A DNA stretch of 54,791 nt, from contig CALDNT010000256.1 of the NCBI GenBank assembly GCA_937915145.1, positions 1 through 54,791 of the forward strand, written 5' to 3'. Below the pieces are notes generated by a model that was given only the letters and a program-made list of their open reading frames with translations, made no database searches and had not been told where the DNA came from. Shown here one piece after another: positions 6,371-26,146 of the stretch. Positions within the stretch are counted from its first letter, which is position 1. Each line of letters opens with the position of its first letter. The DNA is from an uncultured Reyranella sp. (lineage in GTDB: Bacteria; Pseudomonadota; Alphaproteobacteria; Reyranellales; Reyranellaceae). The translations under genes were made by a program, and so were the position numbers.

Positions 6371-7663
6371 CTAGGCGGCAGCCAGCGCCTGGTCGAGATC
6401 GGCCAGGATGTCCTCGATATGTTCCAGTCCGATCGACAGCCGGACATAGCCTGGCGTCACGCCGGTCTGGGCCTGCTCCTCGGCCGATAGCTGCGAATGG
6501 GTGGTCGAGGCGGGGTGGATGGCGAGGCTGCGGGCGTCGCCGATATTGGCCACGTGATAGAACATTTTCAGGCCATCGATGAACTTGCGGCCGGCCTCGG
6601 CGCCGCCCTTGAGCTCGAAGCCCAGCAGCCCGCCATAGCCGCGCGACAGATGCTGGTCGGCGCGCTTCTTCGCCTCGCCTTTCATCAGCGACGGATGGAT
6701 CACCTTGGCGATCTTCTTGTTGGCGGCGAGATGCTTGGCCACGGCGATGGCGTTGTCGCAATGCACCCGCATGCGCAGCGGCAGGGTCTCCAGTCCCTGG
6801 ATGAACATGAAGGCGTTAAAAGGGCTCATCGGCGCGCCGACGTCGCGCAGCAGCGTGACGCGGGCCTTGATGATGTAGGCCACCGGTCCCATCGGCTTGG
6901 TGGCCTCGGTCCATACCGCGCCGTGGTAGCTGGGGTCGGGCGTGTTCAGCATCGGGAAGCGGTCCTTGTGCTTGGCCCAGTCGAAGTTGCCGCCGTCGAC
7001 CAGGATGCCGCCGATCGAGGTGCCGTGGCCGCCGATGTATTTCGTCGTCGAATGCAGCACGATCGCCGCACCATGGTCGAACGGCCGGCACAGCACCGGC
7101 GCCGCCGTGTTGTCCATGATCAGCGGCACGCCCAGCTCGCGGCCGATGCGCGCCACCTGGGCGATCGGGAACACTGCCAGCTTCGGGTTGGGCAGGGTCT
7201 CGGCGTAGTAGCAGCGGGTCTTGGCGTCGGTGGCGCGACGGAAATTCTCCGGATCGGCCGGATCGACGAAGCGGCACTCGATGCCCATGGTCTTCATGGT
7301 GTTGGCGAACAGATTCCAGGTACCGCCGTAGAGGTCGGTGGAAGCGACGAAATTATCGCCGGCGTGGCAGATGTTCTGGACTGCGAACAGCGAGGCCGCC
7401 TGGCCCGAGCCCAGCGCCAGGGCCGCGACCCCGCCTTCGAGGGCGGCGATGCGCTGTTCCAGCACGTCGTTGGTCGGGTTCATGATGCGGCTATAAATGT
7501 TGCCCATCTCGGCCAGGCCAAACAGGTTCTGGGCGTGCTGGGTGTCGCGGAACTGGAAGCTGGTGGTCTGGTAGATCGGTACCGCCACGGCGGTGGTCGC
7601 GGGATCGCTGCGGTAGCCGGCGTGCAGCACGACGGTCTCGGGATGCTTGCTGTTGGTCGCCAT
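6371..7663 (-). CDS. metY: O-acetylhomoserine aminocarboxypropyltransferase (sulfhydrylase)
   Basis: 430 residues, the usual length for this PLP enzyme, starting at 7663 behind CAGGAGGA. It makes homocysteine (or methionine from methanethiol) from O-acetylhomoserine. Seen: the N-terminal segment Glu-Thr-Val-Val-Leu-His-Ala-Gly-Tyr, Tyr-Ser-Arg at 57-59 for phosphate binding, Asp184 in Ile-Met-Asp-Asn-Thr for the PLP nitrogen, and the Schiff-base lysine Lys208 in Ser-Thr-Thr-Lys-Tyr-Ile-Gly-Gly. It is divergent from the PPOX operon 90 bases away. That operon carries a MetX-like hydrolase, so a functional link is possible. Methionine gamma-lyase is the main alternative. Confidence 0.9.
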   Translation of the reverse strand: MATNSKHPETVVLHAGYRSDPATTAVAVPIYQTTSFQFRDTQHAQNLFGLAEMGNIYSRIMNPTNDVLEQRIAALEGGVAALALGSGQAASLFAVQNICHAGDNFVASTDLYGGTWNLFANTMKTMGIECRFVDPADPENFRRATDAKTRCYYAETLPNPKLAVFPIAQVARIGRELGVPLIMDNTAAPVLCRPFDHGAAIVLHSTTKYIGGHGTSIGGILVDGGNFDWAKHKDRFPMLNTPDPSYHGAVWTEATKPMGPVAYIIKARVTLLRDVGAPMSPFNAFMFIQGLETLPLRMRVHCDNAIAVAKHLAANKKIAKVIHPSLMKGEAKKRADQHLSRGYGGLLGFELKGGAEAGRKFIDGLKMFYHVANIGDARSLAIHPASTTHSQLSAEEQAQTGVTPGYVRLSIGLEHIEDILADLDQALAAA

Positions 7664-7753
7664 GGTGTTCCTCCTGCGGGAAGGTCCCGTAACCCCGGTT
7701 GGCCCGGCCTGATTCATGCTACGATTTCGACATCTTTCCGCGAGGTCAACCCC

Positions 7754-8416: not shown

Positions 8417-9321
8417 CCGGACAGCGCGCCCGCCAGATGCGGGCGGTGCCGGCCCCGGTTCTGAAACGGCTCTATGGCCGTTCCGACATCAAGGGGCTGG
8501 TGCAGACCAGCGCGCATCTGTTGCTGCTGGCGGCCGGCGGTTGGCTGGTGCTTGCGACGCGCGACAGCTGGTGGGTGGTGCCGGCGTTGCTACTGCAGGG
8601 CGTACTGGTGAACGCGCTGTTCGGCGCGCTACATGAATCGGTGCATTACGGCACGTTCCGGACGCGCTGGCCGAACGACGTGCTGGCGTTCTTCGCTGGC
8701 GCCGCGATCCTGAACAACGCCGCCTTCTACCGGCACTATCACTACGCCCATCATCGTTACACCCAGGATCCGGCGCGCGATCCCGAACTCCTCAGCGCGG
8801 TCGTGCCGCGGACCTGGGGCCAGTATCTGTTCCGTGCGAGCGCTATTCCCTTCGTGATGATCCGCCTGCGCGACATCTTCGTCTTCCCCCTCGGCCGTCG
8901 CGGCGACGTCGATTACATCGACGAGGCCGGCTGGCCCGAGGTCCATCGCTGGGGCCGGTTGCTGCTCGCGCTTTATGTCGCCCTGATCGTGGGTTCGGTC
9001 GTGTTCGCGACCGACGTCGTGCTGTGGGCCTGGTTCCTGCCGTTGCTGGTCGGATTGCCGCTGCTGCGACTCTATCTTCTGTGCGAGCACACGCTCTGTC
9101 CCGAGAGTGACGACGGCTTCGCCAACACCCGCACGACGCTGTCCAACCAGGTGGTGCGGTTCCTGATGTGGAACCTGCCCTACCATGCCGAGCATCATCT
9201 TTTTCCCAGCATTCCGTTCCATCATCTGCCGGAGGCGCACCGCCATCTGCGGCCGCATCTGAAATACGTGGCGCGGAGCTACACCCAGGTGCACCGCGAG
9301 ATCATCCGGGGCTTTGCGTGA
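8398..9321 (+). CDS. Membrane fatty acid desaturase-like protein
   Basis: 307 residues from ATG 8398 inside the end of the PPOX gene. Three histidine boxes are present: His-Glu-Ser-Val-His (79-83), His-Tyr-His-Tyr-Ala-His-His (113-119) and His-Ala-Glu-His-His (263-267), the eight-histidine di-iron set of membrane desaturases and hydroxylases. Hydrophobic segments near 40-55, 60-80, 185-205 and 208-230 fit two membrane hairpins. Activity could be acyl desaturation or hydroxylation of another lipid-soluble substrate. Its stop overlaps the next gene in a GTGA. Confidence 0.88.
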   Translation: MGAYQVTGQRARQMRAVPAPVLKRLYGRSDIKGLVQTSAHLLLLAAGGWLVLATRDSWWVVPALLLQGVLVNALFGALHESVHYGTFRTRWPNDVLAFFAGAAILNNAAFYRHYHYAHHRYTQDPARDPELLSAVVPRTWGQYLFRASAIPFVMIRLRDIFVFPLGRRGDVDYIDEAGWPEVHRWGRLLLALYVALIVGSVVFATDVVLWAWFLPLLVGLPLLRLYLLCEHTLCPESDDGFANTRTTLSNQVVRFLMWNLPYHAEHHLFPSIPFHHLPEAHRHLRPHLKYVARSYTQVHREIIRGFA

Positions 9322-10301
9322 AGACCGGCGAAGGCGTGTTCGACTGCGGCGACCTCGCGCTGCAGCGCGGCGGCACGCTCAAGGCGGCGCGCATCGTCTA
9401 CAAGACCTACGGCACGCTTTCGCCCGGGCGCGACAACGTCATTGTCTATCCCACCAGCTACTCGGCCCATCATACCGACATCGAATGGCTGGTCGGCGTC
9501 GAACACGCGCTCGACCCCAGTCGCTACTTCATCGTCATTCCCAACATGTTCACCAACGGCCTGTCGTCGTCGCCGTCCAACGCGCCCGGGGGTACACCTG
9601 ATTTTCCTCAGGTGACGACCTACGACAACGTCATGCAGCAGCGGCGGCTGGTGGCCGAACTGTTCGGCGTCGACCGCGTGAAGATGGTCTACGGCTGGTC
9701 GATGGGCGCGCAGCAGGCCTATCACTGGGCCGCCCTGTTCGGCGATTCGGTCGAACGCATCGTGGTCAACTGCGGCTCGGCCCGCACGGCGCCGCACAAT
9801 TTCGTCTTCCTCGAAGGCGTCCGGGCGACACTGCAGGCCGCTGCCACGCCCGAGCAGGGCCTGCGCGCCATGGGCCGCATCTATGCCGGCTGGGCGCTCA
9901 GCCAGACTTTCTATCGTCGCGAGCTGTGGCGCGGCCTGGGCTTCGCCAGCCTGGAGGATTTCCTGGTGCGTTCGTGGGAAGCCAGCTTCGTGCGCCGCGA
10001 CCGGGCCGATCTTCTGGCCCAGCTTTGGACCTGGCAGCATGGCGATATCTCGGCCAACGATCTTTACCGCGGCGACCTGCAGATGGCGCTCAGTGGCATC
10101 ACGGCCAAGGTGCTGCTGATGCCGTCGGCCACCGATCTCTATTTCCAGACCGACGACAACCGCGCCGAGCTGCCTCATCTCAGGAACGCCAGGCTGGTGG
10201 AAATTCCCTCGGTATGGGGCCATCGTGCCGGCAACCCGCTGACAAACCCCGAGGACGCGGCGTTCATTGACGCCCAGGTAGAGGCACTGCTCGATGCATG
10301 A
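9318..10301 (+). CDS. MetX-like alpha/beta hydrolase
   Basis: 327 residues from GTG 9318. The start Gly-Asp-Leu-Ala-Leu-Gln-Arg-Gly-Gly-Thr-Leu then Ala-Arg-Ile-Val-Tyr-Lys-Thr-Tyr-Gly-Thr-Leu is the homoserine O-acetyltransferase (MetX) pattern. The nucleophile is Ser128 in Gly-Trp-Ser-Met-Gly; an Asp in Ala-Thr-Asp-Leu-Tyr and a His in Trp-Gly-His-Arg-Ala-Gly near the C-terminus complete the triad. It is shorter than true MetX (about 370-400) and sits in the selenoprotein operon, so the acyl acceptor may not be homoserine. The divergent metY keeps a methionine link open. Confidence 0.85.
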   Translation: MKTGEGVFDCGDLALQRGGTLKAARIVYKTYGTLSPGRDNVIVYPTSYSAHHTDIEWLVGVEHALDPSRYFIVIPNMFTNGLSSSPSNAPGGTPDFPQVTTYDNVMQQRRLVAELFGVDRVKMVYGWSMGAQQAYHWAALFGDSVERIVVNCGSARTAPHNFVFLEGVRATLQAAATPEQGLRAMGRIYAGWALSQTFYRRELWRGLGFASLEDFLVRSWEASFVRRDRADLLAQLWTWQHGDISANDLYRGDLQMALSGITAKVLLMPSATDLYFQTDDNRAELPHLRNARLVEIPSVWGHRAGNPLTNPEDAAFIDAQVEALLDA

Positions 10302-11736
10302 AGGTCTTCCCAGCGACGGTCTGGTGATCGTCGCCAAGCGCGACTGTCCGACCTGTGTCCTGATCGAGCCGGTGATGCAGAGCCTCGATCGTGCCGGTCC
10401 TCTCGCCGTCATCAGCCAGGACGATCCGGTATTTCCGTCGGGTATCGGGCGCGTGATCGACGACCACGATCTGCAGCGTTCCTTCCGGCTCGGCATCGAA
10501 ACCGTGCCCACCCTGATCCGCCTGAAAGGCGGCCGCGAAGTCGAACGCACCGTGGGCTGGGATCGCGCCGAATGGATCCGCGTCGCCGGCGCGGCCGCCG
10601 CAGGCGATGGCCTGCCGGCATGGCAGCCGGGCTGCGGCTCCAAAAGCGTCGAGCCCGGCGTGCATGAAACCCTGGTTGCGCGCTACGGCGATCCCGGCCT
10701 CGGGTCGCGCGAGATCGCGGTCGGCGAATGGGACGATCCGATCGAGGCCTGCTTCGAGCGCGGCTGGAGCGACGGGCTGCCCGTCGTGCCGCCAACCACC
10801 GACCGCATTCTGCGCATGCTGGGCGGCACTGAGCGCAAGCCGGATGAGATCGTGGGTCTGATTCCGCCCAACCTCGCACCCTGCACGGTCGAGAAGGTGG
10901 CGATCAACGCCGTAATGGCCGGCTGCAAGCCGGAATACATGCCGGTGGTTCTGGGTGTCCTCGAAGCGGCGCTCGATCCGCTGTTCGTCCTGCACGGCCT
11001 GCTGTGCACCACGCATTTCTCGGGGCCGCTGGTCATCATCAACGGACCCGCCGCCAAGGCAATCGGCATGAACAGTGGCGTCAATGCGCTGGGCCAGGGC
11101 AATCGCGCCAACGCCACCATCGGCCGCGCACTGCAGCTCATCGTGCGCAACGTCGGCGGCGGCCTGCCGGGCGGCATGGACCGCGCCACGCTGGGCAATC
11201 CCGGCAAGTTCACCTTCTGCTTCGCCGAAGATGAATCCGATCCCGACTGGGAGCCGCTGGCGCAACGCCGCGGGATTGCCGCAGGCAAGAGCGCCGTCAC
11301 TTTATTTCATGGCGAGGGCGTGAACGGCTTCATCGACCAGAAGTCGCGGACGCCGGAGGAACTCGTGCGTTCGCTGGCGATGGGCCTGTTCGGCGTCGGT
11401 CATCCCAAGCTCTGCCTTGCCGGCAACGCCGTGCTGGTGCTGGCGCCCGAGCACTACAGGATTTTCAAGGACGGCGGTTTTGACCGCCGGCGCATCGAGG
11501 ATGAGCTTTACAAGGCCTTGAAGCGGCCGGGCAGCGAGCTTGTCCGCGGTGCCCAGAATGTCGCCGAGGGCATGCCGCCGTCGTTTGCCGACAAGATGGT
11601 CGACAAATTCCAGCCCGACGGGCTTCTGATCGTTCGCGCCGGCGGTGAAGCCGGGCTATTCTCGGCCATCATCGGCGGCTGGCCCGGCCAGTCGGTACGC
11701 GATGAGTGCCAGGCCGTGACACAGGAAATTCGCTGA
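10294..11736 (+). CDS. Thioredoxin-domain protein fused to UGSC-associated domain
   Basis: 480 residues, overlapping the hydrolase by 8 bases. Residues ~8-105 are a thioredoxin fold with redox pair Cys18-Pro-Thr-Cys21 and a cis-Pro loop (Thr-Val-Pro-Thr-Leu). Residues ~145-480 are a separate domain with Gly-Trp-Ser-Asp-Gly-Leu-Pro-Val-Val-Pro-Pro-Thr, then Ala-Gly-Cys-Lys-Pro-Glu-Tyr and Asn-Ala-Leu-Gly-Gln-Gly-Asn-Arg-Ala-Asn-Ala-Thr. From memory, such proteins travel with UGSC proteins; their reaction is unknown. The layout suggests the thioredoxin part reduces a selenenyl or disulfide intermediate of the next gene product. That is inference. Confidence 0.8.
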   Translation: MHEGLPSDGLVIVAKRDCPTCVLIEPVMQSLDRAGPLAVISQDDPVFPSGIGRVIDDHDLQRSFRLGIETVPTLIRLKGGREVERTVGWDRAEWIRVAGAAAAGDGLPAWQPGCGSKSVEPGVHETLVARYGDPGLGSREIAVGEWDDPIEACFERGWSDGLPVVPPTTDRILRMLGGTERKPDEIVGLIPPNLAPCTVEKVAINAVMAGCKPEYMPVVLGVLEAALDPLFVLHGLLCTTHFSGPLVIINGPAAKAIGMNSGVNALGQGNRANATIGRALQLIVRNVGGGLPGGMDRATLGNPGKFTFCFAEDESDPDWEPLAQRRGIAAGKSAVTLFHGEGVNGFIDQKSRTPEELVRSLAMGLFGVGHPKLCLAGNAVLVLAPEHYRIFKDGGFDRRRIEDELYKALKRPGSELVRGAQNVAEGMPPSFADKMVDKFQPDGLLIVRAGGEAGLFSAIIGGWPGQSVRDECQAVTQEIR

Positions 11737-11749
11737 GGGAGATACGTCC

Positions 11750-12274
11750 ATGAACGTCGTAACCAAGCTGCGCGATCCGACGGCCGAGACCTCGCCCGTC
11801 CGCCGTTCCCGCCTGGCGCCACCGCTCTCGCTCGAGGGCAAGAGCGTCGCGCTGATGGATATCGGCAAGGCGCGTGGGTCGGAATTCATCGATCGGCTCG
11901 AAGGTCACTTCAGGAAAGCCGGTGTCACCACCCGGCGCTACCGCAAACCCACGAACACCAAGGTGGCGCCGACCGATCTGCTGCAGAAGATCGCGGCGGA
12001 AAACCAGCTTGCGGTGATCGCGCTGAGCGATTGAGGCTCCTGCACATCGTGCAGTCTGCACGACCTTCACAGCCTCGACGGACGCGGCCTTCCCGGCGTC
12101 AACATCGTCACCACCCACTTTGCCCAGGGCGTCGAAGCGCAAAGCGACGCGCTGGGATTTGAACCGGGCGTGGTCTACGTGCCGCACCCGATCCAGAACC
12201 GCACCACGGCCGAGATCGAGGCCTACGCCGACCAGGCGTTTGAAAAAGTGATGGCGCTGCTGAAGGCCACCTAG
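11750..12274 (+). CDS. UGSC-motif selenoprotein (in-frame TGA = Sec95)
   Basis: Read through the TGA at 12032-12034, the frame gives 174 residues ending in TAG at 12272. Residues 88-100 read Val-Ile-Ala-Leu-Ser-Asp-(Ala/Ser region) into Sec-Gly-Ser-Cys-Thr-Ser-Cys, the motif that names the UGSC family. The part after TGA is clearly protein (Gly-Val-Asn-Ile-Val-Thr-Thr-His-Phe, Tyr-Val-Pro-His-Pro-Ile-Gln-Asn-Arg), so TGA is not the true end. GGGAGA precedes the ATG. The Sec and two following cysteines suggest redox catalysis; the reaction is unknown. Last gene of the five-gene run; its TAG overlaps the convergent stop in CTAG. Confidence 0.88.
12032..12063 (+). promoter_or_regulatory. Bacterial SECIS hairpin of the UGSC gene
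   Basis: Directly after the TGA, TCGTGCA (12047-12053) pairs perfectly with TGCACGA (12057-12063) around the loop GTC. Counting the T of TGA as 1, the loop G and U are at 23 and 24, the same places as the SelB-contacted G23-U24 of Escherichia coli fdhF, whose apical part (GCAGGUCUGC) is nearly the same. An alternative hairpin, CTGCAC/GTGCAG (12040-12054), competes with it. Confidence 0.8.
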
Positions 12275-24979: not shown

Positions 24980-26146
24980 ATGGTCAAGCGTCTGAGCGAC
25001 CTGCCCGAGGTCGAAGCCCATCACCTCGCCAACATCAAATGTCCGACCTACGACGACACGCCGCCGCTTGCCGGCAAGCCGTTGCAGCAGCGCCGCGTCG
25101 TGCTGATCTCGACGGCGGGCCTGCACAAGCGCGGCGACCGGCCGTTCCAGCCGGGCGACGGCAGCTACCGTGTCATTCCGGCCGACACTGCGGCCAGTGA
25201 GCTGGTGATGAGCCACATCTCGGTCAATTTCGACCGCACCGGCTTTCAGCAGGATCTGAACGTGTCCTTCCCGATCGACCGGTTGCGCGAACTGGCGGCC
25301 GATGGCGTCGTGGGGTCGATGGCGGCGATGCACTATTCCTTCATGGGGGCTTTTCCGCCCGAAGCAGCCGAGCCGCACGCCCGGCATCTGGCGGGGCTGC
25401 TGAAGAACGATCAGGTCGACGCCGCCATCCTCGTTCCGGTTTGACCCGCCTGTACGCGCGCCGTGGGCGCGCTGGGCCACTTTCTGGAGCGCGAAGGCAT
25501 TGCCACCGTCGGCATCAGCCTGGTGCGCGAGCACACTGAAACCATCCGTCCGCCCCGCGCGCTGTGGGTGACGTTCGAACTCGGCCGGCCGCTGGGTGTG
25601 CCGGACGACGCGCCTTTCCAGCGCCGCGTGCTGCATGCCGCTGCCCGCCTGCTGGAACGCACCGACGGTCCGGTGATCGCCGACTATCCCGAGCATGTCA
25701 CCGAGGAGACCGATCTCACCGGCTGGGCCTGCCCGATCAATCTGGCCCCCGGACGGACCGATACGCTGGCGGCGGAGATCGACCGGCTGGGCGTCTGGTA
25801 CGACCGGGCCGTCGCGGCCCAGGGCCGGACCACGGTCGGTGTCTCGGGCCTCGACATGCGGGCGGCGGGCGACCTCGTGACCGCGGCGCTCGACGAGGCG
25901 TTGCCGGCGCCGCAGTTGCTCAAGCAGGCGATTGACGATCTGAAGGCCTACTACCTCGAGGCGGCCTCGGCGTTCCCCGACCCCGGCTCGTCGCGAACGC
26001 GCAAGGCGTGGCTGTGGGACGAGACGATCCTGGCGAGATCGCTGCTTGCATTGCAGCCGAAGCTGGCCGCCAGCGCCGATGCCCAGCATCGGATCCTGGG
26101 CAATCTGACCCTGATCCCGGCAACCGAGCGGCACCGCCTCGGCTAG
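24980..26146 (+). CDS. GrdB-like selenoprotein (glycine/sarcosine/betaine/proline reductase B family), Sec155
   Basis: One frame of 388 residues containing TGA at 25442-25444. The N-terminal half ends Ala-Ala-Ile-Leu-Val-Pro-Val; the TGA is followed by Pro-Ala-Cys-Thr-Arg, giving Sec-x-x-Cys at 155-158, the place of the catalytic Sec in GrdB/PrdB (Sec-x-x-Cys-Thr/Thr-Arg). Sequence on both sides reads as one fold, and the C-terminal half has no start signal of its own. Clostridial GrdB cleaves the C-N bond of the bound amino acid. No GrdA, GrdC or GrdD gene is nearby, so the partner and substrate are unknown. Between a LysR gene and a Rieske oxygenase gene. Confidence 0.88.
25442..25472 (+). 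promoter_or_regulatory. Bacterial SECIS hairpin of the GrdB-like gene
   Basis: GCGCGCC (25456-25462) pairs perfectly with GGCGCGC (25466-25472) around the loop GTG. With the T of TGA as 1, loop G and U are at 22 and 23, one base closer than in fdhF. The stem could be displaced by one or two bases because the sequence is GC-rich. Together with the Sec-x-x-Cys context it supports recoding. Confidence 0.72.

Follow-up and report, generated by a model that had tools for sequence, protein, structure and literature searches.

A UGSC-family selenoprotein gene and its thioredoxin-fused partner: candidate subunits of a GrdB-like selenoenzyme

The described systems closest to the locus analysed here are the UGSC selenoproteins, the selenoproteins of the clostridial glycine and proline reductases (protein B and PrdB) and the TAG-encoded selenoproteins of Geodermatophilaceae. 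Protein B has glycine, sarcosine and betaine versions. Selenocysteine (Sec) stands at position 350 of 436 in GrdB and at position 152 of 242 in PrdB, and both proteins are reduced by thioredoxin or PrdC via selenide-sulfide exchange (PMC3091704). The chain of glycine reduction runs from NADPH through thioredoxin reductase, thioredoxin and GrdA to GrdB (PMC3091704). The UGSC family was described no later than 2008 (PF24696, NF041046), and the GOS paper of that year, in its passages on UGSC, suggested a Trx-like fold and reported a UGSC/'Unknown_1' fusion (PMC2398784). In Geodermatophilaceae, Sec in UGSC-motif proteins is reported to be encoded by TAG and read by a CUA tRNA-Sec (PMC5330540).

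We analysed a stretch of 54,791 nucleotides (the window; contig C256) from the genome of an uncultured Reyranella sp. (4.77 Mb, 98% complete). A first-pass annotation had treated a single gene in it, 11750-12274, and had missed the upstream partner with its fused thioredoxin and the distant kinship to GrdB and PrdB.

The selenocysteine codon, its hairpin and the Sec machinery

The gene has the following features.
11750..12274, + strand: UGSC-family selenoprotein gene encoding 174 aa including Sec95, with the stop codon TAG at 12272-12274 (PF24696 match, alignment, AlphaFold2 model with pLDDT 94)
12032..12034, + strand: in-frame TGA, codon 95, predicted to encode Sec95
12047..12063, + strand: bacterial SECIS-like hairpin with a 7-bp stem (12047-12053/12057-12063) and the loop GUC (12054-12056), 19 nt after the UGA

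Translated with TGA as Sec, 11750-12274 is a single reading frame of 174 residues, intact except for this codon as the first-pass annotation had described. The sequence around Sec95 is ...ALSDUGSCTSCSLHD... (motif D-U-G-S-C-T-S-C), which contains the same Gly-Ser-Cys-Thr-Ser-Cys that had been read after the TGA. Under the standard code the product ends after 94 residues, the truncation that had been foreseen. A profile search with the joined 174-residue protein matched the Pfam UGSC model PF24696 over residues 7-172 (4e-32, 112.1 bits against a gathering score of 25), in line with the family assignment made at first pass. With Sec entered as Cys, the protein scored 122.1 bits (1.8e-35) against NCBIfam NF041046, 3 bits short of the equivalog cut-off of 125. 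D-x-G-S-C was invariant in 40 aligned UGSC members, and the third Cys of UGSCTSC varied, being Trp in the C110 copy. On these matches, 11750-12274 is a new member of the already known UGSC family, with which it has in common its sequence, the UGSC motif, the Sec codon and a hairpin of the bacterial SECIS type (PF24696, NF041046; PMC2398784). The family had been called known and its reaction not, which agrees with the passages on it in papers of 2008, 2022 and 2026.

The codon at the Sec position was read in 113 UGSC genes across phyla, taken from 80 GTDB loci found through the partner protein and from 34 loci found with UGSC as the query. The 80 are the best named loci of a partner-protein search of GTDB genomes and come from Proteobacteria, Actinobacteria, Chloroflexi, Acidobacteria and others, the nearest being those of Reyranella and related MAGs. 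TGA was found in 110 genes, TGC (Cys) in two, L049 and L077 (Elioraea rosea), and TAG in one (L087:7656-7658, Candidatus Blastococcus massiliensis), where the hairpin was kept. A further Cys-type gene (TGT) was present in genome G319. The first-pass annotation had held that relatives with a stop and no aligned Cys or Sec at this codon would speak against Sec; the Cys homologues align at the Sec95 position. The Blastococcus gene resembles the TAG-encoded selenoproteins of Geodermatophilaceae in having TAG at the Sec codon, whereas the window gene uses the usual TGA in a genome with a UCA tRNA-Sec (PMC5330540). The source genome has four UGSC genes with exactly one TGA each. Across the order, 75 of 76 genomes had UGSC matches, with exactly one TGA in every match among those listed. 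Together with the Pfam match and the codon counts, this puts the reading frame well outside what chance would give.

The hairpin was present in 103 of 103 distinct TGA sequences, with at least six of seven pairs and a loop beginning with GU. The window hairpin has the guanosine in a small apical loop just downstream of the UGA that is a known bacterial criterion (PMC1088965). Base-pair covariation of the classical kind was considered, but the stem was nearly invariant, and the argument for the hairpin is therefore based on synonymous codon choice. Where the loop residue is serine its codon was AGT (82/82), against a background of 4.9% AGT among serine codons in the partner genes, and where it is Cys the codon was TGT (21/21). 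Both TGC Cys-type genes (L049, L077) had TCG as the loop serine codon. Binomial values for this codon bias take no account of relatedness and give a scale only. In the C110 paralogue, a joint change of Cys to Trp (TGG) and Leu to Phe (TTC) preserved the stem. Judging by these codon choices, the hairpin is under synonymous constraint.

A genome search for sel genes had been set beforehand as a test of the Sec reading, and selA, selB, selD and tRNA-Sec were all found. On contig C277, selA (552.8 bits, cut-off 267.9), selB (447.3 bits, cut-off 242.25) and tRNA-Sec (71.4 bits, cut-off 47; anticodon TCA, i.e. UCA) form one cluster; selD lies on contig C71. Of 289 class genomes, 28 have UGSC, and in 27 of these selA scored above its cut-off; of the 261 others, 14 had such a selA (Fisher p ~1e-26, a value that ignores relatedness). 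The lone UGSC genome without it is 77% complete. In seven loci (L046, L048, L050, L052, L057, L061 and L071) selA lies directly 3' of UGSC and is followed by selB, apparently as one operon.

Because of the codon swaps to Cys and TAG, the constrained hairpin, the sel genes and the 110 homologues with TGA, we read the TGA at 12032-12034 as a predicted Sec codon with near certainty, as the first-pass annotation had proposed. The same evidence bears on the reading of TGA as a true stop, in a pseudogene, through a sequencing error, or between a 94-residue protein and a separately started downstream half. That reading needs the standard code only, but the 110 homologues keep the TGA with both flanks conserved, the equivalent gene pair of other lineages has Cys there, and the genome has sel genes and a hairpin under synonymous constraint; we consider it very improbable. 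Under standard annotation the catalytic half of the UGSC gene goes unseen.

The partner gene and its thioredoxin-like domain

Directly upstream of UGSC lies a gene that we call the partner. Its features, together with one paralogous module, are the following.
10294..11736, + strand: partner gene, 480 aa, with an N-terminal thioredoxin-like domain and an unnamed domain (about residues 146-470) containing the invariant Cys211
10294..10596, + strand: thioredoxin-like domain of the partner, residues 1-101, with CPTC at 18-21 and the cis-Pro motif TVPT
G000:C110, L163:5496-8910, - strand: paralogous module with a thioredoxin-reductase-like gene, a UGSC gene whose third Cys is Trp, and two consecutive partner genes

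A partner homologue was found beside all four UGSC genes of the source genome and beside 34 of 34 UGSC loci read (these four and 30 others). UGSC and the partner were present in exactly the same 28 of the 289 class genomes, with up to eight paralogues per genome. In these genomes a UGSC gene lay within 2.5 kb of 75 of 79 partner places, and a partner lay within 2.5 kb of at least 64 of 74 UGSC places, at most five partner candidates having been scored per genome. Likewise, 79 of the 80 GTDB partner loci contained a UGSC gene, and the contig of the 80th ends 183 bases past the partner. In L170 (G128:C73:14000-17500) UGSC and the partner form one chain across the TGA (motif CUGSC), and a further partner gene, not fused, comes next; L169, L171 and L172 have the same arrangement. 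These fusions probably correspond to the UGSC/'Unknown_1' fusion reported in the UGSC passages of the 2008 paper. The gene pairing and the fusions suggest that UGSC and the partner very probably form an obligate complex.

The C-terminal main domain of the partner gave no family in Pfam or NCBIfam. Cys211 was kept in every aligned partner, fusions included, and is the sole invariant Cys once the fusions are counted. The structural model of the partner (pLDDT 87, pTM 0.73) is less sure than that of UGSC. A likeness to class I (iron-sulfur) fumarase (best Foldseek E 2e-3, TM ~0.2) was rejected as weak. Neither UGSC nor the partner nor a PrdB-like protein of the window gave a useful hit when searched against PDB sequences.

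Residues 1-101 of the partner superposed on thioredoxins and proteins of the TlpA/DsbE type with VIA-align Z scores of up to 9.7 and an rmsd of ~2.1-2.4 over 86-100 residues, and TIGR01068 matched 11 of 24 partner members (best 2e-4). The domain thus has the fold, the CxxC (CPTC) and the cis-Pro loop (TVPT) of a thioredoxin. The fused form was found across the 80 best loci, a set picked for its similarity to the window form. Most paralogues are without the fused thioredoxin, and the reductant may therefore differ between modules. At the C110 locus, a thioredoxin-reductase-like gene (TIGR01292, 2e-52, under the equivalog cut-off) lies on the same strand as UGSC and ends ~20 nt upstream of it. 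We infer an electron path in which thioredoxin is probably the reductant of the UGSC enzyme.

Predicted fold and relationship to GrdB and PrdB

In the AlphaFold2 model of UGSC (pLDDT 94.2, pTM 0.87), strands alternate with helices, and Sec95 is placed at the N-terminal end of the helix that follows strand three. The best structural matches of the model were flavodoxin- and receiver-like alpha/beta folds, and a thioredoxin fold was absent among the matches listed. The predicted fold appears to differ from the Trx-like fold suggested in the 2008 paper's treatment of the family (PMC2398784). One match, to chain 8s7v_H of the MCR activation complex (Z 12.2), was set aside for function, because it stood hardly apart from those to de novo designs and receiver domains.

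TIGR01917 and the GrdF model NF040794 weakly matched 26 and 24 of 40 UGSC members, respectively. In a profile-profile comparison, UGSC scored 38.9 (37.0 in the first run) against PrdB-like/GRDB proteins. No score from 120 column shuffles exceeded 20.2; the reversed profile gave 15.5 and the partner 14.1. The score of UGSC remained at 35.5-36.0 when the UGSC motif was masked, and the motif alone is therefore not its carrier. Sec was aligned to Sec, with UxxC in the matching position; the UGSC match corresponds to GrdB positions 321-401, and the similarity spans only ~80-95 residues. Against the curated GrdB/PrdB models (TIGR01917, NF040794, TIGR04483) the window UGSC reached 17.9 and 20.5 bits, with cut-offs of 602.2 and 800. 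Because every curated cut-off was missed by far, we do not claim membership of the GrdB family. By profile comparison, the kinship of UGSC to the catalytic half of GrdB/PrdB is distant yet significant.

UGSC resembles GrdB/GrdF/GrdH (PF07355) and PrdB, distantly, in the sequence around Sec and in its UxxC Sec motif. It also resembles them in a large companion protein and, under the mechanism proposed below, in paralogues for several substrates and a thioredoxin-linked reduction. Unlike GrdB/GrdF/GrdH, UGSC has only 174 aa and matches the C-terminal half of GrdB only, and no GrdA or GrdC/D was seen within the UGSC module. The partner, with its one invariant Cys, had no match to the pyruvoyl subunits GrdE/PrdA at E 0.1, so that, unlike in the GrdB/PrdB systems, it is not detectably GrdE/PrdA. 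Unlike the clostridial proteins, UGSC occurs in Alphaproteobacteria and many other non-clostridial lineages.

The window contains a second selenoprotein gene, which belongs to the PrdB-like/GRDB family.
24980-26146, + strand: PrdB-like gene (PF07355; TIGR04483 3.7e-29) with TGA at 25442-25444 and the motif VUPAC

It has a hairpin at 25456-25472 with the loop GUG. Standard reading cuts the gene at 25444 and hides its catalytic half as well. Two more GRDB-family proteins lie close together elsewhere (G000:C114, L154:370-990 and 1237-1890, - strand).

The passages on UGSC in the papers of 2008, 2022 and 2026 contained no mention of the one-to-one partner, the thioredoxin fusion or the GrdB/PrdB kinship. 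As far as the open literature shows, these three observations are new. Together they make the function of UGSC concretely testable biochemically.

Proposed chemistry, alternatives and gene neighbours

We propose, with a probability of roughly 0.6, that the locus encodes a thioredoxin-driven, GrdB-like two-protein selenoenzyme, with UGSC as the selenol subunit and the product of 10294-11736 as the other subunit. By analogy with the clostridial glycine and proline reductases, the partner domain would bind and activate the substrate, and the Sec95 selenolate would attack the partner-held substrate. Cys98 of UxxC would then resolve the product, leaving a selenide-sulfide that the fused thioredoxin domain (CPTC) would reopen, restoring the selenol, and NADPH would reduce the thioredoxin domain via thioredoxin reductase. 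Several paralogous modules per genome may each serve different substrates. The locus has elements that match the glycine reduction chain: its Sec subunit is related to GrdB, and its substrate-side subunit includes thioredoxin as a fused domain. That the chemistry itself is GrdB-like, nucleophilic and, as we infer, reductive is a tentative suggestion with odds somewhat below even. To a wider proposal we likewise give rather less than an even chance: UGSC proteins may be the catalytic subunits of widespread two-component, thioredoxin-driven seleno-reductases, distant kin of GrdB/PrdB, in which the partner replaces GrdE/PrdA and several substrates are served per genome.

UGSC could also be a peroxidase or disulfide oxidoreductase that defends against oxidants and transforms no metabolite. 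UxxC selenoproteins are mostly thiol-redox proteins, the partner carries a thioredoxin domain, the GOS paper suggested a Trx-like fold in its UGSC passages (PMC2398784), and the title of a paper cited in PMC3091704 attributes peroxidase activity to GrdB. This reading is nevertheless unlikely, since the confident UGSC model (pLDDT 94) is flavodoxin/receiver-like with no thioredoxin fold among the matches listed, and since an invariable large partner and up to eight paralogues per genome by catabolic genes fit a substrate-specific enzyme better. The invariant Cys211 and the weak Foldseek likeness of the partner to class I fumarase (E 2e-3, TM ~0.2) could instead indicate that Sec is a metal ligand or has a non-redox role in binding or sensing, the partner then being a subunit that contains a metal or cluster. 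We consider this quite improbable, as that likeness is weak, a single Cys is invariant once the UGSC-partner fusions are counted, and the thioredoxin fusion argues for redox turnover.

For the two-protein selenoenzyme, the neighbouring genes were considered as a guide to the substrate. Immediately upstream of the partner lies the following gene.
9168..10301, + strand: MetX-like gene of the alpha/beta-hydrolase fold (NCBIfam PRK07581 2.6e-136), overlapping the partner start by 8 nt

The MetX-like gene adjoins the module in nine loci, the window included, and is conserved only in the close relatives of the window. A gammaproteobacterial group of relatives has thiolase and transporter genes beside the module instead. 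Because the neighbours differ between groups of relatives, no substrate was chosen from them. The paralogues lie beside an FAD monooxygenase gene (C209), enoyl-CoA hydratase and acyl-CoA dehydrogenase genes (C110) and a LysR regulator gene (C20), and these differing neighbours would fit several substrates. An O-acetylhomoserine sulfhydrylase-type gene is located upstream of the module at 6371-7717 (- strand). Together with the MetX-like gene, it suggests a possible connection of the module with the metabolism of sulfur or selenium amino acids.
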